Assembly: GCA_903869345.1 (NCBI GenBank)
Contig: CAIPYM010000032.1
Coordinates: 1 to 58,999, forward strand
Direction: 5' to 3'
Source of the DNA: an uncultured Pseudomonadota bacterium
Lineage (GTDB): Bacteria > Pseudomonadota > Alphaproteobacteria > UBA9219
DNA: 58,999 nucleotides
Part shown: positions 736-53,266 of the stretch, piece after piece
How the letters are laid out: every line of letters begins with the position of its first letter
Position numbering within the stretch: position 1 is the stretch's first letter
Notes under the pieces: model-generated
Seen by the model: only the letters and a program-made list of their open reading frames with translations
Told to the model about the DNA's origin: nothing
Databases searched by the model: none
Translations under genes and position numbers: made by a program

Positions 736-3558
736 ATGTTGACCTCTCTTCATGTGCGCGGGGCGCGGGAACACAACCTCAAGAACATTGAGGTGACGAT
801 GCCGCGCGACAAGCTTATCGTTATCACGGGCCTCAGCGGTTCGGGAAAATCCTCGCTCGCGTTCGATACCATTTATGCCGAAGGCCAGCGGCGGTACGTC
901 GAAAGCCTGTCGGCGTACGCGCGGCAATTCCTGGAGATGATGCAAAAGCCCGACGTGGATTCCATCGAAGGACTTTCGCCCGCGATTTCGATTGAGCAAA
1001 AGACCACCTCGCGCAATCCGCGATCCACCGTCGGGACTGTGACCGAGATTTACGACTATTTGCGCCTGCTCTTTGCCCGAATCGGCGTGCCGTACTCACC
1101 CGTGACGGGCCTGCCGATTGAGAGCCAAACGGTCTCGCAGATGACGGACCGCATCAAGGCCATGCCCGAGGGGACCAAGCTGCTCCTCCTCGCGCCGATT
1201 GTGCGGGGGCGCAAGGGCGAATACCGGAAGGAGCTGCACGACCTCCGCCGCCAAGGTTTCCAGCGCGTGAAGATTGACGGGCAGGTGCACGAGATTGACG
1301 ACGCCCCCGCGCTCAACAAAAAGCTCAAGCATGACCTGGCCGTGGTCGTTGATCGCGTGGTGATCAAGCCGGACCTTGGCACGCGGCTGGCGGATTCGCT
1401 GGAAACCGCGCTGCGCCTCGCGGACGGTCTGGTGATGGCCGAGAACATGGTGACGGGCGACGTGACAACGTTTTCCGCCAAGTTCGCGTGCCCCGTGAGC
1501 GGGTTCACGATTGACGAGATTGAGCCGCGTTTGTTCTCGTTCAACAGTCCGCACGGCGCGTGCCCCGCGTGCGATGGCCTCGGGGAAAAGCTCTACTTCG
1601 ATCCCGCGTTGGTCATTCCTGACGAGGACCTGAGCCTGGAAGACGGGGCGATTGCGCCGTGGAAAAACACGTCGTCGATGTTCTACACGCAGACCCTGGA
1701 AGGGCTTGCGCAGCATTTCCGGGAGTCGCTCGAAACGCCTTGGCGGAAATTGTCCCCGACGTTTCGGGAGGCCGTGCTGCACGGCACGGGCGATGTGGTG
1801 GTGAATTTTTCGTTCGAGGACACTTCCCGCAAGATGAGTTTTAAGAAGCCCTTTGAAGGCGTTTTGCCCAACCTGGAGCGTCGTTGGCGTGAGACCGACA
1901 GTGCCTGGATGCGGGAAGAACTCAGCCGGTACCAGTCCTCGCAGCCGTGCGAGGTGTGTCACGGGGCGCGGCTGAAACCCGAGGCCCTGGCTGTGAAAAT
2001 TAGAGGCTCCGCGATCAGCGAGGTGTGTGCGTTGTCGCTGGTGGACGCGGCGGGATGGTTCCGCGACCTGCCCCAGAAACTGACTCCCCAGCACAAAACC
2101 ATCGCCGCGCGGATTTTGAAAGAAATCAACGAACGCCTTGGGTTCTTGAACGACGTGGGCCTTTCCTACCTCACGCTTGATCGGGCGAGCGGGACTCTGT
2201 CGGGGGGTGAGAGCCAACGGATTCGTCTGGCCTCCCAAATTGGTTCGGGGCTTACGGGCGTTTTGTACGTGCTCGATGAGCCGTCGATTGGGCTTCACCA
2301 ACGCGATAATGATCGGTTGCTCGGGACCCTCCGGCATTTGCGGGACCTTGGGAACACGGTGATTGTCGTGGAGCATGACGAGGACGCCATTCGCGCGGCG
2401 GATCACCTCATCGACATGGGCCCCGGCGCGGGTGTTCACGGCGGGCGCGTGGTGGCCGAGGGTACGCCGGACGAGGTGATGCGCGTTCCCGAAAGCCTCA
2501 CGGCGCAATACCTCACGGGCGTGCGGACGATCCCGATTCCTGCCAAGCGGCGTCCGGGGCTGAAGGGCAAGTTTCTGGAAATACGTGGAGCGCGGGCCAA
2601 CAACCTCAAGAATCTTCACGCGCGGTTTCCGCTGGGGACTCTTACGTGCGTGACGGGGGTTTCGGGCAGCGGCAAGTCCACGCTGGTGAACGAAACGCTT
2701 TACCGCGCCGTGGCGCGGCACCTGAACGGCACGCGCACGATTCCAGGGGCGTATGACACGCTCAAGGGGCTCGAACACCTTGATAAGATTGTGGACATTG
2801 ACCAAGCCCCCATCGGACGAACGCCCCGGTCGAACCCCGCGACGTACACGGGCGCGTTTACGCCCATTCGGGACTGGTACGCGGGTCTTCCCGAATCCAA
2901 GGCGCGTGGCTACGGGCCGGGGCGGTTCTCGTTCAACGTGAAGGGCGGGCGGTGCGAGGCGTGCGAGGGTGACGGCGTTCTGAAAATTGCCATGCACTTT
3001 CTGCCCGACGTGTTCGTGACGTGCGATGTGTGCCACGGCAAACGCTACAACCGCGAGACCCTCGAGGTTCATTACAAGGGCAAGTCCATCGCCGACGTGC
3101 TCGACATGACGGTGGAGGAGGGCGCGGTATTTTTCGAGGCCGTGCCGTCCATCCGCGACAAGCTGAAGATGCTGGAGCGCGTAGGCCTTGATTACATCAA
3201 GATCGGCCAGGCCGCGACGACCCTTTCCGGCGGCGAGGCCCAGCGGATCAAGCTGTCCAAGGAGCTGGCGCGTCGCGCGACGGGCCGGACGCTCTACATC
3301 CTCGACGAGCCGACAACGGGCCTGCACTTCGAAGACGTGCGGCGCTTGCTGGAGGTCCTTCAGGCGCTGGTGGACCAGGGCAACACGGTGCTCGTGATTG
3401 AGCACAACCTGGAGGTCATCAAGACCGCCGACCACCTGCTTGACCTCGGCCCCGAAGGAGGCGAAGGCGGCGGGTTCCTCGTGGCCTCCGGCACGCCAGA
3501 AGCCGTCGCCCAGGTGGACGCGAGCTTCACGGGGCAGTACCTGCGGAGGGTGCTATAG
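736..3558 (+). CDS. uvrA: Excinuclease ABC subunit A
   Basis: UvrA is the damage-recognition ATPase of nucleotide excision repair. It dimerises, loads UvrB at lesions and acts on DNA in the cytoplasm. The 940-residue length is typical. The first Walker A (GLSGSGKSS) is near residue 32, followed by a CPACDGLG zinc-binding stretch, the ABC signature [11 protein letters not shown] and Walker [10 protein letters not shown]. The second half repeats the architecture: [39 protein letters not shown] and [12 protein letters not shown]. The ATG at 736 gives the canonical start [18 protein letters not shown]; the 44 codons open upstream are low-complexity. UvrB and UvrC are not in the window. Confidence 0.97.
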
Positions 3559-3777
3559 GGGGGATTGCCCCCACAAAACTTGCACGGAGTCCCCGGAGGG
3601 GCTGAGGCGGGCCATATCACGAGGAATCATCGACCGGACAACCAACCCGGCTAATTGATTGGCGCAACAGCGAAGGGGGTCCACGTAGCGCGAGGCTTCC
3701 CGATTCGTGCCCCCGCCAGGACCCTTGTATAAGCGGGGTCTTCCTCGTGAGAACCCTCGCCCCAAAAGGCTTCAACC

Positions 3778-4956
3778 ATGGTGATTCGGAACATCAGGCT
3801 TTTGTACTTCCATAATTTCTTGTGTGATTTTCGGCTGCAAGATGCTTTTCTCGCCATTTATTTTGCTGAAATCGCGGGCTCTTACACGTTAGCCATGGCC
3901 GTTTTCGCCATTACCTCCGCAACATCCGCCCTCATGGACATCCCCACCGGCATTTTATCCGACAAGATGGGACGAAAAGGAACGATGATCCTGGCGTCCT
4001 TCTGTTCGACGCTCAGCATCGTCCTTTACGCTTCGGCGAACGGAATGTGGGCGCTTTGTCTGGGAGGATTCTTGGGGGGCCTGAGCCAGTGCCTCTTCAA
4101 TGGAAACAACAACGCTCTTCTTTTTGAAAGCCTTAAGTCCGCCAACCTGCAGGACAAATTTCATCATTATCAGGGACGGACAAGCAGCCTGTTTCAAGTG
4201 GGCTTGGGGCTTTCGGCCCTCATCGCCTCTTTTTTAACAAACTATGGGTTGCACGTTATTTTTATGCTCGGGATTATTCCTCAGGTTTTATCCCTCGTCG
4301 TCAGTTTTGGGTTTCAAGAACCCCGCACATATCGCCCTGCTCCCACAAAAAATTTCCTTCACATGAAAGAAGCGTGCCTCAAGATTTACACCCATCCGCG
4401 TTTGTTTCTCCTCGTAACTGCCAACGCTCTCCATCATGGGGCCGGGGAAGCCTTGTTTCAATCTCAGACCCCTTTCCTGAATACTTTATGGCCGTTATGG
4501 GCCCTGGGCCTCTACCGATGCCTCGGGAATCTCGCAGGGTTCATCGGTTTCTGGTTCTCGGGCCCCCTCATTGATCGGATCAGCAGAATCCACATTTTGA
4601 TTTTCAGAGACGTCTACTGGCTGTTTTCGCAGACGTTGGGGCTCTTGATGTCAAATGTTGCCACCCCCTTGCTCTTCCTGAGCGGGGCGTTCGTTTTCGG
4701 GCCGGGACTCGTCGCCAGTGATCAGATGATGCAAGAGGAATTCACCGACGACCAACGCGCCACCTTGGGGTCCATCGCCTCGTTCGCAGGCAGCGTTGTT
4801 TTCTCGATCGTTGTGCTCTGTATGGGCCTGATTTCGGATCACTTCAGCCTGGTCCTGGGTGTGGGGTTCGGCGTCGCCCTTTGTGCAACCTCCCTGCCTC
4901 TTTATGTGGTCCTGGCTCGCCGAATGCCGCTCTCCTCCTCGCGCTCCGCCCAATAG
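3778..4956 (+). CDS. Major facilitator superfamily transporter
   Basis: This 392-residue polytopic inner-membrane protein has many hydrophobic helices. It carries a clear MFS motif A (GILSDKMGRKGTM) in the loop after the second helix, near residue 60. It begins ...NIRLLYFHNFLCDFRL, and the first helices are typical of MFS exporters of the drug/sugar-efflux type. A weak AAGG precedes the ATG. It stands alone: uvrA ends about 220 bases upstream and glnA converges downstream. The substrate cannot be inferred. Its AT content and codon choice (more TTT, ATT, AAA) look slightly different from uvrA, which may hint at transfer, but this was not measured. Confidence 0.85.
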   Translation: MVIRNIRLLYFHNFLCDFRLQDAFLAIYFAEIAGSYTLAMAVFAITSATSALMDIPTGILSDKMGRKGTMILASFCSTLSIVLYASANGMWALCLGGFLGGLSQCLFNGNNNALLFESLKSANLQDKFHHYQGRTSSLFQVGLGLSALIASFLTNYGLHVIFMLGIIPQVLSLVVSFGFQEPRTYRPAPTKNFLHMKEACLKIYTHPRLFLLVTANALHHGAGEALFQSQTPFLNTLWPLWALGLYRCLGNLAGFIGFWFSGPLIDRISRIHILIFRDVYWLFSQTLGLLMSNVATPLLFLSGAFVFGPGLVASDQMMQEEFTDDQRATLGSIASFAGSVVFSIVVLCMGLISDHFSLVLGVGFGVALCATSLPLYVVLARRMPLSSSRSAQ

Positions 4957-5101
4957 CCTCTCGTCCCGATTCGTCCCGCCCGCTCAACCCTGGGTATGAG
5001 TAAAGATGGCTCCGAGCGGGGGGCCGCCTTACCGCCTTGCTCCCGGTCCCCCTGTCAGCCAGGGCCTCCAGAGGAACCGAGAGACAAGATCCACCGGAAA
5101 C

Positions 5102-6511
5102 TTACAGCGAATAGTACATGTCGTATTCGATGGGGTGCGGGGCCGTGCGGAAACGATCCCATTCATCGCGTTTCAGATCCAGGTACGATTCCAAAAACTC
5201 TTCCGTGAACACGTCGCCCTTCAAAAGGAAGGCGTGGTCTTTTTCGAGCGACTGGATCGCCTGGTCCAACGACCCGCACACCGTCGGAACCTTCGCGAGT
5301 TCCTTGGGCGGAAGCTCGTACAGGTTATCCTCCATGGCCTTGCCGGGGTGCATCTTGTTCACGATCCCGTCGAGCCCGGCCATCAGCATCGCGGCGTACG
5401 CCAAATAGGGGTTGGCGCTCGGGTCGGGGAACCGCACTTCGACGCGCTTGGCCTTGGGGCCCACCGAGTACGGAATGCGGCACGAGGCCGAACGGTTCCG
5501 CGCGGAGTACGCGAGCAAGACCGGGGCTTCGTACCCTGGCACCAGACGCTTGTAACTGTTGGTCGTGGGGTTCGTCAGCGCATTAAGAGCGCGGGCGTGC
5601 TTGATGATCCCGCCGATGTAGAAGAGGGCCGTTTCGGACAGACCCGCGTACGCATCCCCCGCAAACAGCGGTTTGCCCCCCTTCCACAGGGATTGGTGAA
5701 CGTGCATCCCGGACCCGTTGTCCCCAAACAAGGGCTTGGGCATGAACGTCGCCGTCTTGCCGTAAGCCGCCGCCACATTGCGCACCACGTACTTATAGAC
5801 CTGCATCGCATCGCCACACGCCCCCAGCGGCTGGAACTTGATTCCCAGCTCATGCTGCGAGGAGGCCACTTCGTGGTGGTGCTTTTCGATCCCCAGCCCC
5901 ATGGCCTCCATCGTCCCCAACATCTCGGAGCGCATGTCTTGCTCGGAGTCGACGGGGTTGACGGGGAAATAGCCGCCCTTAACGCGGGGCCGATGGCCCA
6001 GGTTGCCTTGGGGGTAGTCGCGCCCTGAATTGTAGGGTCCTTCGGACGAATCCAAACGGTAAAATGTGTGGTGGGGATCATTGCTGAATTTGATTTCATC
6101 GAAGACAAAAAATTCAGCCTCAGGACCAAAATAGGCCGTGTCGCCGACCTTGGATTGCACGAGGTACGCCTCGGCTTTCTGCGCAATGGACCGTGGACAA
6201 CGCGTGTAGGCCTTGCCCGTCAGCGGATCATGGACATTGCAGAAAAGGACAATCGTCGGTTCCGCGTAAAAGGGATCCAGAACCGCCGTTTCCAAATCAG
6301 GGATCAACGCCATGTCGGATTCGTTGATGTGCTTCCATCCGTCGATGGACGACCCATCAAACATAAATCCGTTTTTGATCGTACCCTCGTCCACCGTTTC
6401 CATGGCGTGCGTCAGGTGATGCAAAACACCGCGCGGGTCCGTGAACCGCAGATCAACGAACTTGGCACCGCTCTTTTTAACGAGGTCCTCGAAAGTCTTG
6501 GGCAGGGACAT
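5102..6511 (-). CDS. glnA: Glutamine synthetase, type I
   Basis: GlnA makes glutamine from glutamate, ammonia and ATP and is the main entry point for ammonium. The 469-residue length matches GSI-beta enzymes. Visible landmarks are FMFDGSSIDGW, the glutamate/metal-binding FGPEAEFFVFD, HHHEVASSQHELG, the ATP-loop region NGSGMHVHQSLW, and NRSASCRIPY. The adenylylation Tyr lies in NLYELPP near residue 398, so GlnE-type covalent control is likely. In many alphaproteobacteria glnB precedes glnA; here no PII gene lies upstream. A candidate sigma-70 promoter lies 60-90 bases upstream. No sigma-54 site was recognised. Confidence 0.97.
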   Translation of the reverse strand: MSLPKTFEDLVKKSGAKFVDLRFTDPRGVLHHLTHAMETVDEGTIKNGFMFDGSSIDGWKHINESDMALIPDLETAVLDPFYAEPTIVLFCNVHDPLTGKAYTRCPRSIAQKAEAYLVQSKVGDTAYFGPEAEFFVFDEIKFSNDPHHTFYRLDSSEGPYNSGRDYPQGNLGHRPRVKGGYFPVNPVDSEQDMRSEMLGTMEAMGLGIEKHHHEVASSQHELGIKFQPLGACGDAMQVYKYVVRNVAAAYGKTATFMPKPLFGDNGSGMHVHQSLWKGGKPLFAGDAYAGLSETALFYIGGIIKHARALNALTNPTTNSYKRLVPGYEAPVLLAYSARNRSASCRIPYSVGPKAKRVEVRFPDPSANPYLAYAAMLMAGLDGIVNKMHPGKAMEDNLYELPPKELAKVPTVCGSLDQAIQSLEKDHAFLLKGDVFTEEFLESYLDLKRDEWDRFRTAPHPIEYDMYYSL

Positions 6512-7076
6512 GGTGGCAGCGTCCTTGAAAGGGTGGGCAACGTGCGACGCTTATGCGCCGGACGCCGGGGACCCTAAGCGCCCCCAAGTCCCTTGACAAC
6601 GTTGATTCTTTGTGCTCCCTGTGCAGGCACCTCTTATTGTACGCGCGTTTTTAGCGTCCCGCCTTTGAGAATCGGCCCCGCGCCCTGCAATTGTTCCTGT
6701 CCTCGCTCGTGAGGCGTTGCGTCTGCGGAGTGCCCGAACACGCCATTTGAGGCCGCAGCCCTCGCCTTCGCCTTTCCGAAACGACGGCGTCCAGCCGCCG
6801 GAACGAGGCAAAAGCCCTTAATTTTCGTTTCTAATTCGATCCAAATAGGGGCGCTTTTGCCCAAAAGGGGCAAGAATGTATCCGGAAGTAATGATGTTCG
6901 TTCATTAAAATAATGGATATAGATTAATCTTCATTTACTACGATTTTTATTGCAATCGAACGCTTATGTGTGTAGGATTTGTCCTAGCCGCCGACATTGA
7001 CATCCTGCACCAACCTGCAAGGAATCAACGGTCTGGCAGCGACGGGATGGACATCAAACCAAGGGTAGAAACCGTG
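6512..7076. other. Intergenic region upstream of glnA
   Basis: Apart from the candidate glnA promoter, no gene is supported here. Bases about 6890-6965 are clearly AT-rich against the GC-rich background and could hold further promoter elements. A small inverted repeat, TTGCCC/GGGCAA, lies at 6857-6873 without a following T-run. Open frames on both strands here are short or low-complexity. Confidence 0.5.
6571..6599 (-). promoter_or_regulatory. Candidate sigma-70 promoter of glnA
   Basis: Read on the minus strand, TTGTCA (6594-6599) is followed after 17 bases by TAGGGT (6571-6576), about 60 bases before the glnA ATG. The -35 is close to consensus and the spacing is ideal, but the -10 is weak. 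This is a pattern match only. Confidence 0.35.
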
Positions 7077-7343
7077 TCAAACGCTCAGGTTCACCTTTTC
7101 GCCCTCTCTTTCCTCCCCCTCGGGAGGGTTGCTGGGGCCGCGCTTGCCGGAACGAACGGAGGCACGACGATCGCCCGGCATTCGCGCCTTGGCGTCCGTT
7201 TCGGCCTTTGCCGGCGGGGGACTTGCGTTACGGGTAATCGGTGCGACGGCTTGCACGGGCCCCACGGGAGTCACGGTTTGCGGAGCGCCGGGCGCGACCG
7301 CGCCCACGGTGGCCGGTGCGGGGGGGGCGGGCGTAATTTGCAT
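7077..7343 (-). CDS. Small Pro/Ala-rich hypothetical protein
   Basis: This possible 88-residue protein begins at an ATG with AAGGAGA about nine bases upstream. The N-terminal half is rich in Pro, Ala and Val (MQITPAPPAPATVGAV); the C-terminal half is charged (GDRRASVRSGKRG, EGEEREGEK). The frame stays open to a TTG at 7439, so a 120-residue form is possible. It is divergent from the DUF2336 gene. I recognise no family. Low complexity and an open antisense frame make a false call quite possible. Confidence 0.35.
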   Translation of the reverse strand: MQITPAPPAPATVGAVAPGAPQTVTPVGPVQAVAPITRNASPPPAKAETDAKARMPGDRRASVRSGKRGPSNPPEGEEREGEKVNLSV

Positions 7344-10654: not shown

Positions 10655-12478
10655 ATGAACGCCTCCACCTTCCCGTCCTCCTCCGTCACCGCGTTCCTGG
10701 ATTTCCCGGACGCGACGCCGGACGCTGAAGCAACGGCAAACGGTGAAGACCCTGCGGCGCGAGAAACACGCTGGTTCGCGCACCCCTTGCGAACGCTCTG
10801 CGCCACAACCTTGGACGACGTGATCCCCACCCTTCGGGCCGCCGAAGCCGAGGCCCACGCGGGCCGTTGGATCCTCGGCTTTGTCGCCTACGAAGCCGCG
10901 CCTGCCTTTGATGCTGCACTGACGGTCCGCCCTCCCGACCCGCACGCGCCCCTGGCCGCCTTTGCCGTTTTCGATCACCCCGAAGATGCCCCGTGTCCCT
11001 TGTCCGAAGACACGTCACACGGCGCGACGTGCGACCTTTGGCAGGCGGAAACGCCCGCACGCACGTGGATGCAGCGCCTGGAGTCCACCCGAGAGGCCAT
11101 CGCAGCAGGTGCCTACTACCAAACAAACCTCACGGGCCGTTGGCACGCTGCATTGACAGGGGATTCTTGGGACCTCTTTCAGGCCCTTCGTGCGGCGCAA
11201 CCCGGCGGGCATGGGCTGTACCTCAACCTGGGCGAGATTCAGGTCTGTTCCGTCTCGCCCGAAATGTTTTTCGCCTGGGACCCGGAATCACGCGCCCTCG
11301 TCACGCGCCCCATGAAGGGCACGGCGGATCCCGAAAACCCTGGGGACCTGGAGGCACTGCGCACCTCGGCCAAAGACAGAGCCGAAAATCTGATGATCGT
11401 TGACCTTTTGCGCAACGACCTCGCGAAAATCGCCGAGCGCGATTCAGTTCGCGTGCCCACGCTGTACGCCATCACGCGCCTGCCCAGCGTCCTTCAGATG
11501 ACCTCGACCGTCACGTGCCGAACCCGCGAGGACGTGACCCTGACCGATGTGTTTCGGGCCCTCTTCCCGTGCGGGTCCATCACAGGAGCGCCCAAGGTCG
11601 CAGCAATGAAGGCCATCGCGACCAACGAAGATTCGCCGCGCGGCGCGTACTGCGGAGCCCTTGGTGTCATCCGACCAGGAGGCGCATGCCGGTGGAGCGT
11701 CGGCATTCGGACCGTCACGGTGCAAAAAGGCCAAGCGACCTACGGCGCTGGCAGCGGCATCACGTGGGATTCACGCCCCGAGGCTGAACTCGCCGAATGG
11801 ACGATGAAGCGACGTTTTGTGAATCGCGCGACCGCCTCGTTTTCCCTTCTCGAAACCCTGCGCCTGGAGGAGGGCTGCCTGGTCGAAGGTGATCGTCACC
11901 TCGCGCGTCTTCAGCGCGGGGCCCGGCATTTCGGCTTTGCGCTGAACGAAAACGCGGCGCGGGAAGCGCTTTCATCGCTGCAACGCGCCCACCCGCACGG
12001 CACCTGGCGCGTGCGTCTGCAAACGGACCGTGCGGGGCTCGTGCAAACCGACATTGTACCCCTTCCCGCAACGCCTCCCGTTGTCACCGTCGCGCTCGCC
12101 ACGGCCCCGCTTCGGGGTGAGCCCGAGTTTTTGATCCACAAGACGACCGAGCGCAGCGCCTACGCCCCCTTTGCGCCCCCGCTGGACAGCGGGATTTTCG
12201 ACACGCTCCTTTTCAACGACCACGAGGAAATCACCGAATTCACGCGCGGCAACGTGGCCTTCACGTTGGGAGAGGGCGGGCCGTTTCTGACGCCGCCCGT
12301 TGCTTGCGGGCTTCTGCCCGGCATTCGTCGGGAAGTCCTGCTGGAATCGGGTGCGCTCTGCGAAGGTCTTTTGCGCCTGCGCGACCTTCCTCACCTCACG
12401 GGCCTTTGGTTCCTCAACAGCCTGCGCGGGGTGATCCCGGCGCAAGGAACGTTCAGAGGCACAAAAGCCCTTACGTGA
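10655..12478 (+). CDS. pabB: Fused aminodeoxychorismate synthase I / 4-amino-4-deoxychorismate lyase
   Basis: This 607-residue fusion serves p-aminobenzoate synthesis for folate. Residues about 130-390 form the chorismate-binding domain: SPEMFFAW, PMKGTADP with Lys221 (the PIKGT lysine typical of PabB rather than anthranilate synthase), DLLRNDLAKI, PCGSITGAPK and AGSGITWDS. Residues about 400-605 form a fold-type IV PLP domain like PabC. They start at FSLLETLRLEEG, have the catalytic Lys in IHKTTERSAY, and end at LWFLNSLRGVIPA. Such PabBC fusions are known. The PabA glutaminase is not in the window. The last codons and stop lie inside a 57-bp direct repeat that recurs before recN. Confidence 0.93.
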   Translation: MNASTFPSSSVTAFLDFPDATPDAEATANGEDPAARETRWFAHPLRTLCATTLDDVIPTLRAAEAEAHAGRWILGFVAYEAAPAFDAALTVRPPDPHAPLAAFAVFDHPEDAPCPLSEDTSHGATCDLWQAETPARTWMQRLESTREAIAAGAYYQTNLTGRWHAALTGDSWDLFQALRAAQPGGHGLYLNLGEIQVCSVSPEMFFAWDPESRALVTRPMKGTADPENPGDLEALRTSAKDRAENLMIVDLLRNDLAKIAERDSVRVPTLYAITRLPSVLQMTSTVTCRTREDVTLTDVFRALFPCGSITGAPKVAAMKAIATNEDSPRGAYCGALGVIRPGGACRWSVGIRTVTVQKGQATYGAGSGITWDSRPEAELAEWTMKRRFVNRATASFSLLETLRLEEGCLVEGDRHLARLQRGARHFGFALNENAAREALSSLQRAHPHGTWRVRLQTDRAGLVQTDIVPLPATPPVVTVALATAPLRGEPEFLIHKTTERSAYAPFAPPLDSGIFDTLLFNDHEEITEFTRGNVAFTLGEGGPFLTPPVACGLLPGIRREVLLESGALCEGLLRLRDLPHLTGLWFLNSLRGVIPAQGTFRGTKALT

Positions 12479-12519
12479 CAGGCCTTCCCTCCCTTTGGTA
12501 AGGAGGTTGCTGCGTCAAG
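12463..12519 (+). repeat. 57-bp direct repeat, left copy (overlaps pabBC stop)
   Basis: This copy is identical over 57 bases to 13982-14038. It begins AAAAGCCCTTACGTGA, so it includes the last four codons and the stop of pabBC. It contains an imperfect hairpin (CCTCCCTT, loop, AAGGAGG) and ends GCTGCGTCAAG. The two copies enclose a 1462-bp segment with a single minus-strand gene. A perfect repeat overlapping a gene's 3' end resembles an attachment-site duplication, but no integrase is present. Confidence 0.95.
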
Positions 12520-12550
12520 CAAAGACGAAGGAGATCGCGTGCAGAACGAT

Positions 12551-13807
12551 CTACGGTTGAGAATGGAAGACTTTATCCTGGGGGATCCAGAGCCAGAAAA
12601 CCTCCTCCGGAGCCCCAAAACTGTTCAATTCATACCCGACCTTACGCCGTCCCGTTCGTGCGACATATCCCCCCCCGTCTACGCCCAAACTCACCAAGGA
12701 ATCGGTGTAAGATAATGGTTCGGTCAGGCGCGTCGGCTCGATGTGTTGTTCGGCGCTTGCCTCAAGCGGCAGTAAGAATACATCGTTGTTCAGCCATGTA
12801 CGTCGTGCGTCGGGGGACCAAATATCAGCCAAGGGCCATTTGGACCAAGACTCCGATTCTTGGTAGCAATCACTTGCCCATAGCAAGACGGCCCGCGAGC
12901 CGATACGTGCCGATTGAAGGTGACTCACGTTACCGCAAATGTTCAGTTTGATGGGAGAGGACCAAACGTCTTGCCCTTTATCCAACCTCTGAACATACAA
13001 GGCACTGTCGAGCACATAGGCCGCCCACAGGCGATTTTCGTCCCCAATCAACGTCGATTCCATCAGTAAATCGTTGATCGTCGAGGCGGCGTTGGCAATG
13101 GTCATCTCATGCCAAGTTCGTCCCCCATCCAACGACACAAGATGGTCAAGACGGTGCTGGGGATGCCCACTCTTGGGGTCGGGGAACGCAATCATCGGAA
13201 CAAGAACGTGAAAAGCATCGTTCCACCAAACGACGGACGGGCTCAGAAGCCCCGTGGCTCTATGCAAAAGAGCTTTTTTTGCAACACGCGCGAAAGAGGC
13301 TGTTGGCTCATCAGTACGCCACAGGGACAGTTCGTCCCTATACGTTGATGCGGCCACAGTCGTTCCTTGGGGGGAGGATTGCGTCGCAACGCGGCTCATG
13401 GCGTCGCCAGGAACTAAGACGTTCGGAAGGGAATGCGATCTCTGTTCATCCCCTTCAATCATCACGCGCTCAAAATAAGGTGGACAGATAATCAGGTGTC
13501 CATGTGTAACATGCATAAGCGTTGAATTGCACAGGTCCAGCCTTGTCCCAGGGGATGTCAAAGATCGAGGGGCTGCCGCGTGATTCTCCACCATATCCGT
13601 CAGGCTGAAACGATCACTGTCCTGTACGACTATAACGGCGCCAGCAGACGTCGCGCCGAGGCCTACAAAACCCCGGGCAGTTCCGAATGTTCCCCATGTG
13701 TTCCATGTTTCAGCACCCGACGGTCGAGGAAACCCCATCATCAGCAAAAAGAATATCGGGAAGAAACAGACAGAGACCAACCTAAAACCGAAAAGATCCT
13801 GAGCCAT
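12551..13807 (-). CDS. Secreted BNR/Asp-box sialidase-like protein
   Basis: This 418-residue protein has an N-terminal signal peptide: a hydrophobic run VSVCFFPIFFLLMMGF with likely cleavage after PSGA. The body is beta-rich with one clear Asp-box (SLDGGRTWHEM, matching SxDxGxTW) and a degenerate one (SPDARRTW). Both are hallmarks of sialidase-type beta-propellers and BNR-repeat proteins. A good site (GGAG, seven bases) precedes the ATG. Sialidase activity is not shown: I cannot identify the Arg triad or the nucleophile Tyr/Glu pair. The gene is opposite in strand to both neighbours, is lower in GC, and lies wholly between two 57-bp direct repeats, so it was probably acquired. Confidence 0.75.
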   Translation of the reverse strand: MAQDLFGFRLVSVCFFPIFFLLMMGFPRPSGAETWNTWGTFGTARGFVGLGATSAGAVIVVQDSDRFSLTDMVENHAAAPRSLTSPGTRLDLCNSTLMHVTHGHLIICPPYFERVMIEGDEQRSHSLPNVLVPGDAMSRVATQSSPQGTTVAASTYRDELSLWRTDEPTASFARVAKKALLHRATGLLSPSVVWWNDAFHVLVPMIAFPDPKSGHPQHRLDHLVSLDGGRTWHEMTIANAASTINDLLMESTLIGDENRLWAAYVLDSALYVQRLDKGQDVWSSPIKLNICGNVSHLQSARIGSRAVLLWASDCYQESESWSKWPLADIWSPDARRTWLNNDVFLLPLEASAEQHIEPTRLTEPLSYTDSLVSLGVDGGGYVARTGRRKVGYELNSFGAPEEVFWLWIPQDKVFHSQP

Positions 13808-13981
13808 TCCGTGTCTCCTTCAACACGGCCGGAGCACAAAACTTCCGACTCGGAGGCATGCGTTTTGAGCGCGAACCTAGGTGGATTTTGTCTCAAGGAG
13901 TCCATACGAGTCAAACCGACGACAACCCAGTGTAGCACCTTGCACGAGGGGCATTTGGATCACCCTGTGTCAGAATGACTG

Positions 13982-14038
13982 AAAAGCCCTTACGTGACAG
14001 GCCTTCCCTCCCTTTGGTAAGGAGGTTGCTGCGTCAAG
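13982..14038 (+). repeat. 57-bp direct repeat, right copy (upstream of recN)
   Basis: This is a perfect copy of 12463-12519. Here the piece encoding the pabBC C-terminus is out of context, 52 bases before the recN start. Removing one repeat plus the enclosed segment (1519 bp) would leave pabBC directly followed by recN with pabBC intact. Offset between copies is exactly 1519 bases. Confidence 0.95.
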
Positions 14039-14089
14039 AGCGGCTCCCGCGTGTCGTTCTTACGCCGGGAAGCGGAAAGGATCGCGTCC

Positions 14090-15769
14090 GTGCTCACTCG
14101 GCTGGTTATTCATGATGTCGTGCTGATTGACCGCCTGACGCTCGCGCTCGGGCCGGGGTTGAACGTCTTCACGGGCGAGACGGGCGCGGGCAAGTCCATC
14201 GTGCTGGACGCCTTGGGGTTCGCGCTGGGGGCGCGGGGCGACGCGGGCCTCATCCGCGCAGGCGCGGACAACGCCAGTGTCACGGCCGAGTGGGGAAGCC
14301 CTCGGGGGCTCCCGTCCGCAACGTGTGCGCTTTTGCGCGATCAGGGGATCACGCCCGAGGACCCGCTGATCACGCGGCGAACGCTGGGCCGGGATGGTCG
14401 CTCGCGGGCGTTCATCAACGACCAGCCCATCGGCATTGGTTTGCTGAAAGCACTCGGGGCGACGCTGTTCACGCTGCACGGGCAGTTTGAATCGCACGGG
14501 CTCTTGGACCCCGCGACCCACCGCGTGTGGCTCGACGCCTTCGCGGGTCTGGACGCGCCGCGAAGCGCGGTTGCCGAGGCCCATGCCGCTTGGCGCAAGG
14601 CCGAGGCCGAGCATCAAGCCGCCCTCGACAACCAAGCCCGCGCGAGGGCCGAAGCCGATTTCCTCCGCGCTGCCGTGGCCGAGCTTGGCGCCCTCGGCCC
14701 TCAGGACGGCGAGGCCGCGACGCTGGCTGAGCGACGCACGACCCTTCAGGCGCGGGGACGCATCGGGGAGCATCTGCGCACGGCGCTGGAGGACCTGGAC
14801 GGTGAGCGCGGCGCGGCAACAGGCTTGGCGCGAGCAGGGCGGACTCTGGCGCGGCTGGCCGAGAAAGCCCCCGAGATCGCAAGCATCCTCGCGTTTGTGG
14901 ACCGCGCGATGGACGACGCTGCCGAGGCTCTTCAGGCCCTGCAACGCCTCGTGGACGAGGAAGCGAACGGCCCCGAGGAACTTCAGCGCCTCGAAGATCG
15001 CCTGTTCAGCCTGCGGGGGGTGGCCCGCAAACACAACGTGGACCCCGACGCCCTGCCCGCCCTGCATCGGACATTGGCCGAGCGCCTGGAGCTTTTGGAC
15101 GATGCGGAAACCCACCTCCCCGTGCTGGCCAAAGCCGTGGGAGCGGCGCGAGCGCAGTACCTGGAGTTGGCACGAGCCCTCAGTGCCCTTCGCCGCAAAG
15201 GAGCCGAGGCCCTGGCCAAGCGGCTTCACAAAGAGCTTGCGCCGTTGAAACTTGAACGGGCGCGGTTTGAGGCGAACCTCACGCCCCTGCCCGAGGATGA
15301 AGGCCAAGCCGAGGGGTTGGAGCGCGTGACGTTCCAGGCGACGATCAACCCCGGCACGCCCCCCGGTGCGTTGCATAAAGTCGCCTCGGGCGGGGAGCTC
15401 GCGCGGTTCCTGCTCGCCCTTCACGTCATTTTGGCCGCCGAGGATTCCGTCCCCACGCTCGTGTTCGACGAAGTGGACGCGGGCATTGGCGGGGCTGTCG
15501 CGGCGGCGGTCGGCGCACGCCTCGCGCGTTTGGCGGGTCAGGGGCAGCAAGTCTTGGTCGTCACGCACAGCCCCCAGGTCGCAGCCCGCGCCCAAACGCA
15601 TTTCCGCGTTTCCAAAAAAACAACGGGCGAGGGGCAGACCCTAACCCGCGTGGAATCCCTCGATGTCCCCGAGCGCGTGGAGGAACTGGCCCGCATGCTG
15701 GCAGGCTCCACCGTCACCGACGCCGCCCGCGCCGCCGCCCGGCATTTGATGGAGGATGGAAAGGGGTAG
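14090..15769 (+). CDS. recN: DNA repair protein RecN
   Basis: RecN is an SMC-like ATPase for double-strand-break repair. The 559-residue protein has Walker A GETGAGKS near residue 31, a central coiled-coil rich in Ala/Glu/Arg (residues about 150-360), the ABC signature KVASGGELARFLLAL, and Walker B TLVFDEVDAGIGG followed by the H-loop VTHSPQVAARA. GTG 14090 gives MLTRLVIHDVVLIDRL, the normal RecN start, with AAGGA eight bases upstream; an upstream GTG at 14051 is less likely. In many alphaproteobacteria recN sits beside comL/bamD and ligA; here the neighbours are pabBC (via the inserted unit) and a coiled-coil membrane protein. Confidence 0.95.
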   Translation: MLTRLVIHDVVLIDRLTLALGPGLNVFTGETGAGKSIVLDALGFALGARGDAGLIRAGADNASVTAEWGSPRGLPSATCALLRDQGITPEDPLITRRTLGRDGRSRAFINDQPIGIGLLKALGATLFTLHGQFESHGLLDPATHRVWLDAFAGLDAPRSAVAEAHAAWRKAEAEHQAALDNQARARAEADFLRAAVAELGALGPQDGEAATLAERRTTLQARGRIGEHLRTALEDLDGERGAATGLARAGRTLARLAEKAPEIASILAFVDRAMDDAAEALQALQRLVDEEANGPEELQRLEDRLFSLRGVARKHNVDPDALPALHRTLAERLELLDDAETHLPVLAKAVGAARAQYLELARALSALRRKGAEALAKRLHKELAPLKLERARFEANLTPLPEDEGQAEGLERVTFQATINPGTPPGALHKVASGGELARFLLALHVILAAEDSVPTLVFDEVDAGIGGAVAAAVGARLARLAGQGQQVLVVTHSPQVAARAQTHFRVSKKTTGEGQTLTRVESLDVPERVEELARMLAGSTVTDAARAAARHLMEDGKG

Positions 15770-20808: not shown

Positions 20809-20847
20809 TGGTTCCAGGCCTTGTGACACCCCTAAGGAGTGCGGATT

Positions 20848-23055
20848 ATGTCCTCGAAACATCTTCTTCTCGCCACCAGTGCCTTGGCCCTCGTGTTGAT
20901 GATCGGCGCGGCTTTCGCCGACAGCAACGTGGCCAACGTCAGTCAATCGGGGACAGGGAACAGCATCTCAATTGCACAAGTTGGGAACGCCAACACCGCC
21001 GGGACGAGTATAAGCCCCATCCTCCAGGCGGGCGTTAACGGCGACGCAACCATTGTTCAGGGAACAACGTCCGACAGCAGCAACGGAGCCATCGTGGCCC
21101 TTCAGCAAGGTGGCAGCTTCACCAGCGCCACCATCACCCAAACAGGGACCGGGGCTGTTAACCAAGCGACAGTGACTCAAAATGGTTCTGGAACAGATGT
21201 TGCGCATCAAGAAACTGCGGTTGTTCAGCAAAGCATCGGCGGTGGATATGCCAGCATCACCCAGAGCGGCAGCGCCGATAACGCAACCATCGTTCAGACA
21301 AATATCGGCACAGCTGTTATTCAGCAGAATGCGTCTTCCGGCAACACGGCGGGTGTGACCCAGCATGGTCTCGGCGGTTACGTGGGAGTCACCCAAACGG
21401 GCGCGGGCAACGTAGCGAATTTTCTTGAAACCGCAACGGCTCTTGGCAACACAGCCTCCTTGCTCGACCAATCAGGCACCGGCAACCATGCAGGAGTCAC
21501 ACAAAGTGGCACCGGGGGCCAGGGGCTGACCGTCACACAACATGGCACGAGCAGCACAGCGACGGCGGATCAGGGGGGTACCTCGAATAAGCTGATCATC
21601 ACCCAGACGGCATCCACCGCCCTTTCCGAAGCGACGATCATCCAGACGGGCACGTTAGGCGTTGCCGAAATCACGCAGTCCAGCGTGTCGGACAAGGCCA
21701 GCATCCGGCAGTCCGGGCAGAAAGATCACGCGACCATTGATCAGAGTGCCGCTCGGCAGGAGCTTGACATTGTTCAAAATGGAACGGGACCCCTGGGCAA
21801 CACCCTCAACGTCAGGCAACACAACACCGATGAAAAAGTGTTCCTTTCGCAGAGTGGTGACAACAACACGCTTGACATCACGCAGAACGGGATCGGTGAC
21901 ATTGTCGGCGTCGACGCCTCTCACCCTCTCAGCCAGGCGGGCACCGGCAACGTGTTCACCATCACCCAAGGCACCGCCGGGAACAACAGCGTCACGGGCA
22001 GCCAAACGAGTGGGGGTGGTGTTATCATTTCGAACCAGGTTGGTGAACATGGAACGGCCAACTTTACCCAACGGGGACGGATCAATGATATCACGCTCAC
22101 CCAGAAAGGCGTATCGGACAGCGCGGACGTCGCCCAGATTGGCGTTCGGGATGAGGCCACTATCCTTCAGAATGCCAACAGAGAGACGGTCAACATCGTC
22201 CAAAACGGAATGGGCGCTGGAAACCTGCTTGATGTCACCCAGAACAACACAGATGAACATGTCTTCCTCGCACAAGGTGGCAGCCGGAACCAGCTGAACC
22301 TTACGCAGAACGGAGTCGGTGACATCGTGGGCGTCGATGCCTCTCACCCTCTTAGCCAAGCGGGCACCGGCAACGCGTTCGCCATCACCCAAGGCACCGC
22401 CGGGAACAACAGCGTCACGGGCAGCCAGACCGGAACCAACAACACGCTCTTTGTAAATCAGTGGGGCAGCAGCGGTACGGCTAACGTCGCCCAAAGCGGA
22501 ACGTACAATTATGTCGACCTCTCTCAGGAGGGTGTTGGGGATCACGCAAGCGTGACCCAGAATGGAACAAGCGACTTGGCTCTCTTGTCTCAGAACGCCA
22601 ACAGCGACACCGTCAGCATTGTTCAAAACGGAACAGGCGCTGGAAACGCGCTCTTTATCCTGCAGGGCAACACCGACGAGAGCGCGTTCATTTCCCAGGG
22701 GGGAGAAGGCAACGTCATCAACGTCAAGCAGCACGGAGTCAATGACGTTGTGGGCAGTGCGACCGACCCCCTTACGCAGGCGGGAACCGGCAACCTCTTT
22801 GTGATCGCGCAAGGAAGTGCAAGTGCAGGAAACAACAGCGTCACGGGAAGCCAGACAGGAACCAACGGCAGGATCGACGTGTCCCAGTTGGGTGGAAACG
22901 ATACGGCTGCCTTTAACCAGCAAGGTTCGAACAACGTTGCTTTGCTCACGCAAAACGGCTTCAACGATCACGCGAGCATCACGCAGCTTGGCAACAACGA
23001 TCTTGTGAACGTCGTTCAGAGCGCCAACAACGCTGTCATCGTTATCCAACACTAG
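20848..23055 (+). CDS. Large secreted curlin-repeat protein (paralogue 1)
   Basis: This is a 735-residue exported protein. The signal peptide (HLLLATSALALVLMIGAAFA) has likely cleavage before DSN. The mature part is almost wholly curlin-type repeats of about 20-25 residues, rich in Gln, Asn, Gly, Ser and Thr (pattern xITQxGxxNxxxxxQ, e.g. VSQSGTGNSISIAQVGN). Such repeats form stacked beta-strands in CsgA/CsgB amyloid. A 141-residue super-repeat occurs three times, marked by GDIVGVDASHPLSQAGTGN and NNSVTGSQT, at exact 423-base spacing. The size is several times that of CsgA. The ATG at 20848 is preferred: TAAGGAG lies eight bases upstream, too close for the GTG at 20839. No csgE/F/G or csgD homologue lies nearby. 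Confidence 0.9.
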   Translation: MSSKHLLLATSALALVLMIGAAFADSNVANVSQSGTGNSISIAQVGNANTAGTSISPILQAGVNGDATIVQGTTSDSSNGAIVALQQGGSFTSATITQTGTGAVNQATVTQNGSGTDVAHQETAVVQQSIGGGYASITQSGSADNATIVQTNIGTAVIQQNASSGNTAGVTQHGLGGYVGVTQTGAGNVANFLETATALGNTASLLDQSGTGNHAGVTQSGTGGQGLTVTQHGTSSTATADQGGTSNKLIITQTASTALSEATIIQTGTLGVAEITQSSVSDKASIRQSGQKDHATIDQSAARQELDIVQNGTGPLGNTLNVRQHNTDEKVFLSQSGDNNTLDITQNGIGDIVGVDASHPLSQAGTGNVFTITQGTAGNNSVTGSQTSGGGVIISNQVGEHGTANFTQRGRINDITLTQKGVSDSADVAQIGVRDEATILQNANRETVNIVQNGMGAGNLLDVTQNNTDEHVFLAQGGSRNQLNLTQNGVGDIVGVDASHPLSQAGTGNAFAITQGTAGNNSVTGSQTGTNNTLFVNQWGSSGTANVAQSGTYNYVDLSQEGVGDHASVTQNGTSDLALLSQNANSDTVSIVQNGTGAGNALFILQGNTDESAFISQGGEGNVINVKQHGVNDVVGSATDPLTQAGTGNLFVIAQGSASAGNNSVTGSQTGTNGRIDVSQLGGNDTAAFNQQGSNNVALLTQNGFNDHASITQLGNNDLVNVVQSANNAVIVIQH
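21656..23049 (+). repeat. Three tandem 423-bp modules inside curlin gene 1
   Basis: Equivalent anchors GAC-ATT/ATC/GTT (start of DIVGVD, DIVGVD, DVVGSA) lie at 21898, 22321 and 22744, each 423 bases apart. The upstream anchor around IVQNG lies at 21766, 22192 and 22615, spacings of 426 and 423; the first copy has one extra residue. The third copy is followed by a shorter end. Outer limits are approximate because flanking curlin units also resemble one another. Confidence 0.8.
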
Positions 23056-23216
23056 ACACTGTTCGTAAAGGTGGAGGGGGATGGTGGCGAAGGGGCGATG
23101 AAGCCGAGGAACGCGTTGTCTTTTTTTTCGTAGTGAACGGCCAACCGTCTGTTTTCCTTAATTTTTCCGAAGAACATTTCGATGCGCCGTCGCAAGCGGT
23201 AGATGGTTTTGGGCAT
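23052..23216 (-). pseudogene. IS5-family transposase, C-terminal fragment
   Basis: The minus-strand reading PKTIYRLRRRIEMFFGKIKE followed by NRRLAVHYEKKDNAFLGFIA matches the C-terminal end of IS5-group DDE transposases (RxxIExFFxxLKxxRRIAxRYDK). The Glu in RIEMFF corresponds to the catalytic E. The N-terminal and central catalytic parts are missing: upstream the reading runs into unrelated GC-rich sequence. The fragment ends one codon into the 3' end of the curlin gene, whose stop overlaps it in antisense. Confidence 0.7.
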
Positions 23217-23403
23217 AATGGACAAAGTGTGTGGGTAAAAATTGAGGGCTGAAGGACACGAAGGGTTGCAAGTCAAAGGGGCTGTGGACGGGGCGAGCGG
23301 AGCGGGAGCCCTCACGAGCGGAGCGACGCGAGCCCCCGTTTGCGTGAAACGTTTAGGGGTCCCTGGTTTTCGTGTTTTCATACGGACCGTCGGAGAGAGC
23401 CGA

Positions 23404-23637
23404 TCAGGAATCGGCGAGGAGGAAAGCGATCATTTTGGAACGCCGTGCGGGGCGGAAGCCGCGATGGATTTTGACTGTGTTTTTCCAATGCGCGAAGGAG
23501 CCATCACAGGAATTGGTGGTGGCCGGGACCATAAGGTGAGGGAAGCGTTTGTACGTAAAAAGGAAAGGCAGGTTGGAACGTAGACTGCGCACGGCGCTGC
23601 GCAACGTGCGGTGTTTGAACTGTCCAAGCTCGTTGCG
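23404..23637 (-). pseudogene. DDE-type transposase, C-terminal fragment
   Basis: The minus-strand frame contains LRSAVRSLRSNLPFLFTYKR, PATTNSCDGSFAHWKNTVKI and HRGFRPARRSKMI. This resembles the C-terminus of a bacterial DDE transposase group with the pattern NTTNxxxGxFxxLKxxxRxHxGLxxxRRxKxI. The frame is open further upstream, but there it lies antisense to the IS630 fragment, so the recognisable homology stops near 23637. No start or catalytic Asp residues remain. I am unsure of the IS family name. Confidence 0.5.
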
Positions 23638-23922
23638 TCCTTTCAGAAAATCGGCGTAACGATTCCGAATGGCGTGCAGGCGTGGATTGCGGAAAACGCC
23701 AACAAAATAGCCGTTTTCCACCCGCCGCCGTACACACCCGATCTCAATCCGGATGAGTACTTGAACAACGATCTCAAGAAGAACGTCCACCGTCTGTCGG
23801 GGCTCGCCTCCTCCAAGAAGGAACGGAAATCCAACGTTCTCGCCTACTTGCGGCACATTCCGAAATCCCCCGCCAAGGTCCGATCCTTCTTCCAGGCCAA
23901 GGAAACCAAGTACGCCGCCTAG
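23611..23922 (+). pseudogene. IS630-family transposase, C-terminal fragment
   Basis: The 103-codon frame contains VQAWIAENANKIAVFHPPPY and TPDLNPDEYLNNDLKK, the hallmark of IS630 transposases (FxLPPYSPELNPDExLNxDLK with the catalytic Glu), and ends VRSFFQAKETKYAA, the usual C-terminus. Homology begins around codon 12. The N-terminal helix-turn-helix and the first catalytic Asp residues are missing, so it cannot be active. It lies head-to-head with the minus-strand DDE fragment. Confidence 0.75.
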
Positions 23923-23965
23923 AGAATGTTATCTATTTATGTGCATTTATAGTAAGTCGATAACA

Positions 23966-24010
23966 TCCCAGCAGAGCTGGGAGTTCGAAGTAGAACCACC
24001 AAAGGTGGTT
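23966..24010. repeat. Two adjacent hairpins at an IS200-like end
   Basis: TCCCAGC-AGA-GCTGGGA (23966-23982) and AACCACC-AAA-GGTGGTT (23994-24010) are perfect 7-bp stems with 3-base loops, 11 bases apart, just beyond the 3' end of the tnpA remnant. IS200/IS605 elements carry subterminal hairpins recognised by TnpA, so these may mark the element end. Confidence 0.5.
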
Positions 24011-24094
24011 TGAAAGGATTTGATGACAAAGTATGAGACTTTATGAGACCCCCTGTCTCATCTCAATCTGATCCGCCTTTTTATTGGCAATCTC

Positions 24095-24484
24095 CTAGTT
24101 TCGAATGTAGAGCCTGATCTTTTCCTCATCACGCCCTGCTGTCGTCACAAAAGTGCCTCGTGCCCAGAATGTGCGCTCCGCAAAATTGCGCATCCTCCTC
24201 TCGATGTTCTGCGCAATCCAAATCGAGCTCTTCCCCTTCAGATACCCAATGATTTCCGCTACCGAGTATTTGGAAGGAATCGAAATCAGCATGTGCACAC
24301 ATGGTCCCCCATCAAGTGCCCTTCCGCAATCTCACACTCCTTGCGCCGGGCCAGATCGTGAAAGCCCCCCCCCGATTCCCTTTGATCCTGCCGAACAGAA
24401 CTTTTTCCGGTACTTTGGCGTGAACACCACGTGGTGCTTGCATTCCCATGTGCTGTGATTAAGGTGGTTGATGTCTTGATTCAT
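24095..24484 (-). pseudogene. tnpA: IS200/IS605-family TnpA, frameshifted
   Basis: Read from the ATG at 24484, the sequence begins MNQDINHLNHSTWECKHHVV, the normal start of IS200 TnpA. After YRKK the frame shifts to give LFGRIKGNR and DLARRKECEIAEGHLMGDH. After GDHV a 2-base insertion shifts it again, before HMLISIPSKYSVAEIIGYLK. The HUH-type motif (HVHM) is thus disrupted. The C-terminal region ends GRDEEKIRLYIRN, which includes the region of the catalytic Tyr, and stops slightly early. At least two frameshifts make it inactive. No tnpB is present. Confidence 0.85.
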
Positions 24485-24597
24485 GTATTCGCTCCGTCCT
24501 AGGCGGAGGTTTCGCAGGAATCCATGACGTTCCGAGAGTTTGGCGTATCGAATCGGGACCTGCGCGGTTTTGATTCCCTATTTTTGAGGAGGGCACA

Positions 24598-25497
24598 GTG
24601 TCTCATCCTATCCTGTCCTGGAAATCCCTTGTGCTGACGGTTTTGGTGGCGGCGGGCGTGTCCGCGGGGGTAGTAGGATGGATCGTGCCGCGCGGAGGCG
24701 TGTCCATCCAAGCGAACGGCGTTTTCAAAAGCGTTCTGCCTCGCATTTTGGAAACGGGCGTGATCCGGGCCGGGTACATCGCGTACCCACCGCTTTGCGT
24801 GGTGGATCCGACGACGCATGCCGTGAGCGGGATCTTTGCCGAAGCTCTGGAAAATATTGCCTCCCGAGCGAATCTGAAAGTGGAATGGGTTGAAGAGGCG
24901 GGGTTCAGTTCCATGGTCGAAGGGCTCAACCTGGGGCGGTACGACATCATGCCGTGCGGCGTTTGGGGCACAACGGTGCGCGCGCAGAGGGCCACGCTCA
25001 CGCGGCCTTTTGTTTACAGCAGCATTAAAGCCTGGGCGCGACAGGATGACACGCGCTTTGCCCAAGGTCTTGCGGCGATCAACGATTCCTCGATCACGGT
25101 GGGAGGGCTGGACGGGTCCATGTCCCTTGCAATTGCCAAGATGGATTTTCCGGAAGCGAAGACCATCAGCCTGCCCAATTTGACGTCGGAATCCCAGGTG
25201 CTGTTGGACGTGGTCCATAAGAGGGCCGATGTGACATTTACGGATGCCTACCAAGCGCAACTGTTCGTAAAGCAAAATCCGGGAACGCTGGTTCAGGTTG
25301 GTACAAAACCCGTGCGTGTTTTTCCGAATGTGATGATGGTGCCGATGGGCGATTTTGCTTTTCGGTCTTTTCTGGACGCGGGGATTGAGGAAATCACCAA
25401 CCTGGGGCTTGCCGAGCGTTTGATCCAAAAATACGCGCCCGAGCCAGGGACGTTTTTGTTCCTGAGATCGCCTTACCGGATCGACTCGGATTCCTGA
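24598..25497 (+). CDS. Extracellular solute-binding protein, family 3
   Basis: This 299-residue periplasmic or membrane-anchored binding protein begins with a hydrophobic segment (LVLTVLVAAGVSAGVVGWIV, residues about 11-30). It then shows the bilobal SBP family 3 pattern: VIRAGYIAYPPLCVVDPTTH, GIFAEALENIASRANLKVEW, GLNLGRYDIMPCGVWGTTVRA, TRPFVYSS and DVVHKRADVTFTDAYQAQLF. These proteins usually bind amino acids. A GTG start is preceded by GAGGAGG. No permease or ATPase gene of an ABC transporter follows, so it may act with a distant system or in sensing. It lies directly after the IS cluster. Confidence 0.85.
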   Translation: MSHPILSWKSLVLTVLVAAGVSAGVVGWIVPRGGVSIQANGVFKSVLPRILETGVIRAGYIAYPPLCVVDPTTHAVSGIFAEALENIASRANLKVEWVEEAGFSSMVEGLNLGRYDIMPCGVWGTTVRAQRATLTRPFVYSSIKAWARQDDTRFAQGLAAINDSSITVGGLDGSMSLAIAKMDFPEAKTISLPNLTSESQVLLDVVHKRADVTFTDAYQAQLFVKQNPGTLVQVGTKPVRVFPNVMMVPMGDFAFRSFLDAGIEEITNLGLAERLIQKYAPEPGTFLFLRSPYRIDSDS

Positions 25498-43568: not shown

Positions 43569-43654
43569 CGTCATCGCGAGCGGAGCGAAGCGATCCAGGG
43601 GACCTGGCACGTGGCCCTGGATTGCTTCGGCCCTTTCAGGGCCTCGCAATGACG
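43569..43654. repeat. Dispersed palindromic repeat, family A, copy 1
   Basis: It begins CGTCATCGCGAGCGGAGCGA and ends GGGCCTCGCAATGACG, i.e. inverted ends CGTCATCGCGAG/CTCGCAATGACG with one mismatch. It is in the opposite orientation to the copies at 52150 and 53147, and lies in the 126-base gap between the two M16 genes. The centre differs. Confidence 0.75.
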
Positions 43655-43663
43655 ATGAAGGGA

Positions 43664-52117: not shown

Positions 52118-52149
52118 GGGGGGTGTGTGGGCGTTGTCCCCTCAACCGC

Positions 52150-52232
52150 CCTTGCGAGCCCCCGTAGGGGGCGCGGCAATCCAGAGCCACGTGCCCAGTC
52201 CCCTGGATCGCTTCGCTCCGCTCGCGATGACG
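52150..52232. repeat. Dispersed palindromic repeat, family A, copy 2
   Basis: It runs from CTTGCGAGCCCCCGTAGGGG to CGCTCCGCTCGCGATGACG in the gap between the FadN-type gene and dapD, 31 bases before the dapD ATG. It is almost identical to the copy at 53147-53232 on the other side of dapD, in the same orientation. Thus dapD is flanked by direct copies about 1 kb apart. Confidence 0.85.
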
Positions 52233-52262
52233 GTTCTTTTGAAAGCAACCGATGAGGCTTCC

Positions 52263-53117
52263 ATGTCCCTTGATCTCGCCGCCGTGATCGATGCCGCGTG
52301 GGAGGGTCGCGCGACGCTCACCCCCGCAACGCAAGGCCCCGTGCGCGATGCCGTCAGCGAGGCCCTCGCGGGTCTGGATGCGGGGCGTTTGCGCATTGCC
52401 GAAAAGACGGACGGCGTCTGGCGGGTGAAGGCGTGGCTCAAAAAGGCGGTTCTGTTGTCCTTTCGCCTGAACGAGGAACACCTGCTCCCCGGAGGCTTTG
52501 AACCGAGCGACGGGGCCGTTGCGCCCTGGTGGGACAAGGTGCCTTCCAAATGGGCAGGCTGGGACGCAGGCGCGTTCAAACGCGCGGGCTTTCGCGCGGT
52601 ACCGGGCAGCTTTGTACGCTTTTCGGCCTACATCGCGCCGGGCGCTGTCCTGATGCCGTGCTTTGTGAACGTTGGGGCGCGGGTTGAGGACAACACGATG
52701 GTGGACAGCTGGACCACCGTGGGCAGCTGCGCCCAAATTGGCCGCAACTGCCACCTCTCGGCCAGTGTGATGATCGGCGGCGTCCTCGAGCCGCTTCAGG
52801 CCGAGCCCGTGATCATCGAAGACGATTGCTTTATCGGCGCGGGCTCGCAAGTCGCCGAAGGCATGGTGATAGAGCGCGGTGCGGTGATTGCGATGGGGGT
52901 TTCCCTCGGCGCGTCCACCAAAATCGTGGACCGCACGACGGGCGAAGTCGTTCAGGGCCGCGTTCCGGCGTATTCGGTCGTGGTACCGGGGACGCTCCCC
53001 GGCCCGGTGCTGCCGAACGGCGCCCCTGGCCCGAGCCTCGCGTGCGCCGTGATCGTCAAGCGCGTGGATGCGCAAACACGCGCCAAAACGTCGCTGAATG
53101 ACTTGCTGCGGGCGTAA
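52263..53117 (+). CDS. dapD: 2,3,4,5-tetrahydropyridine-2,6-dicarboxylate N-succinyltransferase
   Basis: DapD succinylates tetrahydrodipicolinate in the diaminopimelate/lysine pathway. The 284-residue enzyme has a helical N-terminus ([19 protein letters not shown]) and a left-handed beta-helix of hexapeptide repeats: [39 protein letters not shown], and [24 protein letters not shown] lies close to the ATG at 52263; the upstream frame is merely the dispersed repeat. It is flanked by two family A repeats. dapE, often the next gene, is absent. Confidence 0.96.
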
Positions 53118-53232: not shown

Positions 53233-53266
53233 GTGTACTGGATGTTCATGAAAGAAGGAGTGCAGC

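Follow-up and report, generated by a model that had tools for sequence, protein, structure and literature searches.

We propose that the segment separating pabBC from recN in the genome of an uncultured alphaproteobacterium of the UBA9219 lineage is a short piece of foreign DNA that brought in a single complete gene. On balance, we favor reading it as one of about eight insertions of different ages that duplicated their targets in this genome, most likely without a dedicated recombinase. This explanation builds on the observed anatomy of the units, their recurrence, the unrelated sequences of their repeats, the intact flanking genes, and a target at the ampD/rppH locus that can still be read. 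The window referred to below is the whole stretch of 58,999 nt that contains the pabBC-recN locus, and it belongs to a 76-contig draft genome of 1.74 Mb that is 99% complete.

The two 57-bp direct repeats at this locus are identical at 57 of 57 positions and spaced 1519 bp from start to start (Table 1). As the preliminary description had reported, the left copy includes the end and stop codon of pabBC and the right copy precedes recN. Just 5' of the recN GTG at 14090 is an AAGGA motif, while the GTG at 14051 gives a longer reading; the right repeat ends 12 bp before the latter and 51 bp before the former, likelier start. Removal of one 1519-bp unit would, as first described, restore a simple junction between pabBC and recN, ~92 nt long by our count, and the description of a discrete inserted unit that encodes no recombinase and whose duplication leaves both neighbors intact is supported. 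We infer from the sequence that an insertion, rather than another history, produced this arrangement. A search for further copies of the 57-mer, which had been suggested at the outset, found two in the whole genome, both at this locus. The identity of 57 bp at a distance of 1.5 kb is not chance, because exact repeats of 25 bp or more that are unique in this genome and lie no more than 5 kb apart occur as 14 direct pairs and no inverted pair.

Table 1 Features of the pabBC-recN locus and comparable repeat-bounded units. C, contigs of the same genome; G013, another member of the family.
Feature	Location	Strand	Repeats	Target or context	Contents or remarks
pabBC fusion	10655-12478	+		3' end inside left repeat	chorismate-binding and aminotransferase IV domains; intact
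Left 57-bp direct repeat copy	12463-12519	+		last 5 codons and stop of pabBC, then 41 nt	
Inserted segment	12520-13981				1,462 bp
Terminator-like hairpin	12532-12552	-		directly 3' of orphan gene, within insert	consensus match only
Orphan gene	12551-13807	-			418 aa with signal peptide at the N-terminus; single Asp-box (SLDGGRTW)
Promoter-like site	13885-13914	-		5' of orphan gene, within insert	weak consensus match; number of such sites as expected by chance
Right 57-bp direct repeat copy	13982-14038	+		directly ahead of recN	
recN	14051-15769	+			likely start GTG 14090, in frame with GTG 14051
Unit on C27			55 bp, 94.5% (45 exact)	between mfd 5' end and crp-type gene	218-aa orphan; GC 0.50
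Unit on C4			37 bp, 100%	repeats contain stop of peptide ABC ATPase gene	127-aa orphan
Unit on C15	23466-24278 (L151 5466-6278)		65 bp, 89%	amidase gene 3' end	RelB/DinJ-YafQ pair
Unit on C15	26292-27513		112 bp, 97%	across start of sufB-like gene	insert GC 0.497
Unit on C17 (L082)	5991-6073 and 7006-7088 (repeats)		83 bp, 84%	ampD/rppH	295-aa orphan; GC 0.47
Unit on C41			48 bp, 100%	5' of ilvD	acyltransferase-SGNH gene, its stop in right repeat
Unit on C9	L148 3313-4387		228 bp, 91%	rpsD 3' end	carboxymuconolactone-decarboxylase-like gene
Similar unit on C20	1-101		101 bp, exact	begins at contig end	
Unit in G013	C6:133567-138621		284 bp, 97%	OsmC-like gene 3' end (assigned by eye)	4.7-kb unit

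The GC content of the insert (0.538) is below that of the genome (0.608) and of the flanking genes (0.65-0.69), and 3.9% of equal-length genome windows are as GC-poor. The insert is not the sole GC-poor part of the window, since the stretches at 3500-5000, 23000-24750, and 54250-56500 have values of ~0.51-0.54 in 1-kb windows; long flanking repeats were not found around these. No second copy or paralog of the insert was detected anywhere in the genome, its ends bear no terminal inverted repeats, and its single ORF contains no recombinase domain. No RNA family scored above its gathering threshold within the unit, and the window contains no tRNA. The 57-mer was absent from 58 related genomes and had no match among viral contigs.

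The preliminary description had called the inserted gene secreted, minus-strand, and low in GC, all of which agrees with our analysis, and had also called it a BNR-type, sialidase-like gene. The Asp-box behind that name is present, but this single box yields a Pfam BNR match below the cut-off (E = 0.12), and the protein has no match among NCBIfam families or PDB sequences; the sialidase identity is not supported. Comparison with PHROGs gave a match at chance level only. No relatives were found in 58 near relatives and 385 class-wide genomes (~440 in total), nor among plasmids, phages, viral contigs, and GTDB contigs, and a single-sequence AlphaFold model was uninformative (pLDDT 32). The product is best named a secreted orphan, possibly with a beta-propeller fold.

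Elsewhere in the window, positions 20839-23055 encode a 738-aa secreted protein whose QxGxxN-type repeats resemble those of curlin, a functional amyloid, and which includes an internal tandem duplication of ~423 bp. A multi-copy palindromic repeat ('GTCATTGCGAGC...GCAATCCAG') is found at 43569-43695, 52147-52234, and 53147-53234, and one copy is read into the N-terminus of a DapD-like ORF (52125-53117).

In no relative examined does pabBC adjoin recN, and these genomes yielded no site of either kind, empty or filled. The gene before recN is bamD in most relatives with readable flanks, and a pabBC fusion either does not occur in the family or was met only in more distant genomes. As far as the compared genomes reach, all of them from outside the genus, the pabBC-recN junction thus appears to be private to this lineage. 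The lack of an empty site follows from this poor conservation of the junction, and the absence of the 57-mer from relatives is uninformative, and no refutation of an insertion, because none of those examined has pabBC beside recN.

We listed close repeats across ~1.72 Mb of the same genome, scanned in stretches. Direct pairs prevailed among locally unique repeats of at least 28 bp within 8 kb (35 direct, 1 inverted) and among gapped BLAST pairs (21 direct, 1 inverted). Many direct pairs are tandem paralogs or coding repeats and were set aside: C3, C7, C15 4407-7315, C24, C36 1-763, C37, C41 54524, C52, C64, C75, and window positions 21768-22908. Roughly seven further segments, small and poor in GC, are bounded by direct repeats that are locally unique, 37-228 bp long, and 84-100% identical (Table 1). 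They form a class that we assembled after seeing the window case, with ambiguous paralogous and contig-end pairs dropped by eye. Most contain one gene, and one contains a RelB/DinJ-YafQ toxin-antitoxin pair. Taken together, the nine inserts have a low GC content (Fisher combined p ~8e-6). Their repeats are local gene junctions, comprising the 3' ends of pabBC, the ABC ATPase gene, the amidase gene, rpsD, ampD, and rppH, the 5' end of the sufB-like gene, and the spacers before mfd and ilvD. The spread of repeat identity from 100% down to 84% suggests that the events occurred at different times.

The units on C20 and C36 (16638) were kept separate from this class because they touch contig ends. 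Contigs C20 (1-101), C36 (16638-18735), and C52 (13007-14696) each have, at one end, one copy of a direct repeat whose partner is close by, and this could mark tandem copies or population variants that broke the assembly. A scan of 362 kb of G013 yielded a larger unit (Table 1), which contains tail-fiber-like secreted proteins and lies beside an apparent tRNA-Ser start.

The ampD/rppH locus preserves the most direct view of a target. Both repeat copies there encode the C-terminus and stop of an AmpD-type amidase on one strand (...CANDEA.GAK.A.TRA*) and those of a NUDIX RppH-like protein on the other (PIYARV.A.FAPLASSLAQ..G.CA*), so that the sequence itself reveals the ancestral target without recourse to a relative. 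Only one ampD end and one rppH end are in use today. Most simply, a single copy once held the convergent overlap of ampD and rppH, and the insertion duplicated that overlap, in which case both genes would have kept their ends because the overlap was doubled. Two other loci show uneven repeat identity. In the amidase unit on C15, 46 bp match at 98% and similarity beyond is weak; the other gene end there can likewise be translated as an amidase C-terminus and has the look of a homolog acquired from elsewhere. In the C9 unit, mismatches in the ungapped part number 0 of 74 positions in rpsD codons and 7 of 103 outside them (p = 0.04). The unevenness in C9 and C15 appears to be better explained by gene conversion or the import of homologous DNA than by the decay of an exact duplication.

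Several other histories were weighed. A tyrosine or serine recombinase might have inserted a small element that lacked its own integrase, and was mobilized in trans or decayed, at the 3' end of pabBC, leaving the 57-mers as attL and attR, as the att-like ends of the preliminary description implied. We consider this unlikely. Gene 3' ends are classic attB sites, the 57-bp repeat restores the end of pabBC, the genome contains five tyrosine-recombinase genes (all on contigs other than that of the window), and the amidase unit on C15 resembles an attP that mimics a gene end; but the pabBC-recN unit has no recombinase, the repeats include one gene 5' end and two spacers that precede genes, and the 57-mer folds no better than shuffled sequence (z-scores 0.58 and -1.1). 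Moreover, the repeats of the nine units share no core, their longest common word being 9 bp against a shuffled null median of 9, and their lengths vary from 37 to 228 bp, which speaks against att-like ends. Quite unlikely, in our judgment, is Campbell-type homologous recombination of a circle carrying the gene and a homologous piece of the junction, with circles arising from inter-repeat loss in another strain. It leaves the first placement of the gene beside that junction unexplained, and at 37-57 bp the shorter repeats offer RecA little length for efficient recombination, even though it would account for the diverged homologous repeats of C9 (91%), C15 (89%), and C17 (84%) and for the patchy, block-wise pattern in C9. 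For E. coli, PMC2884548 cites a threshold of close to 30 bp.

It is very unlikely that the repeats predate the insertion or that the unit is the remnant of a larger tandem duplication or decayed island: direct repeats are indeed common in this genome, including the tandem paralogs on C24, C37, C52, and C64, but the 57-mers are exact, the insert has no second copy or paralog, and eight one-gene units would require eight independent, precise decays. An assembly artifact, in which a 57-bp overlap caused a false join in the draft, seems highly improbable, given that usual reads are longer than 57 bp, that the gene is complete and both flanks are read through, and that a like anatomy recurs on six other contigs, several of them with repeats diverged beyond any overlap error; in its favor, some comparable repeats (C20, C36, C52) lie at contig ends, where assemblers break or loop.

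For the favored reading, insertion of a foreign fragment with duplication of its target, we infer how the DNA was joined, where it came from, and its later loss through inter-repeat recombination as follows. Incoming foreign DNA would have been joined by illegitimate recombination, duplicating 57 bp of target that comprises the 3' end of pabBC and intergenic sequence. Either a nascent strand may switch to the foreign fragment and return 40-230 bp upstream of its exit point, or one end of the fragment may recombine through homology while the other is joined illegitimately. Selection would then keep only those events whose duplication spares the genes on both sides, and the unit could later be lost by recombination between its repeats. 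No common motif was found at the insert ends among the nine loci, and this, together with coreless repeats of variable length, argues against a single integrase, a transposon with a fixed duplication, and integron cassettes. Ku (PF02735) had no match in the 99% complete genome, making classic end joining of staggered breaks unlikely. ComEC is present, a weak pointer to DNA uptake and transformation because it occurs in most bacteria.

The units resemble several known systems in part. Variable segments bounded by direct repeats have been described between core genes of E. coli, S. aureus, and S. pyogenes, where illegitimate recombination was proposed; repeats occurred at 10-18% of variable segments, and most were shorter than 30 bp (Touzain et al. 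2010, PMC2884548). The pabBC-recN unit is likewise a small segment with direct-repeat bounds and no mobility gene, whereas the units of the UBA9219 genome have repeats of 37-228 bp and contain mainly whole single genes. With their longer repeats and whole-gene inserts, we regard them as a variant of the known repeat-bounded segments and not as a new category. Homology-facilitated and double illegitimate recombination during natural transformation, for which PMC2884548 cites work on Acinetobacter, Pneumococcus, and Pseudomonas stutzeri, is a further parallel. There, too, foreign fragments are captured without a recombinase. The outcomes described for such recombination are mainly insertion with deletion of target DNA, whereas target DNA is duplicated in the UBA9219 units; competence of this organism is putative.

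Integrase-borne islets at gene 3' ends also have direct repeats that restore the gene end, but the UBA9219 units lack an integrase and a common core and occupy other types of target as well. Integron gene cassettes are similar in having one gene per unit and a sequence of ~57 bp at the end; the 57-mer differs in being confined to a single site, in having neither the core motifs of attC (by inspection) nor a stable hairpin, and in including host coding sequence. In contrast to the constant, short duplications of transposons, insertion sequences, and MITEs, the duplication varies in length from 37 to 228 bp across units. The minimal mobile elements of Neisseria are alike in that variable genes lie between fixed neighbors, and they differ from the UBA9219 units in depending on homology within the conserved genes on either side, for which duplication of a junction is not required.

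The entry of single genes into compact bacterial genomes in the absence of a mobile element is poorly understood, as a signature is usually missing from the junctions. In this genome the duplicated target provides a clear one, at about eight sites of different age. If the units are confirmed in strains, additive gene gain would become directly measurable in its rate, its length distribution, and its reversibility, and long, unique, close direct repeats across a gene junction provide a search rule for other genomes. It is possible, though we think doubtful, that this lineage has an undescribed pathway by which single foreign genes are added repeatedly, with 40-230 bp of target duplicated, and without Ku, a transposase, or a site-specific recombinase. 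If so, such a pathway would be a general route of additive gene gain that spares overlapping or abutting genes and leaves behind a reversible, repeat-bounded unit.
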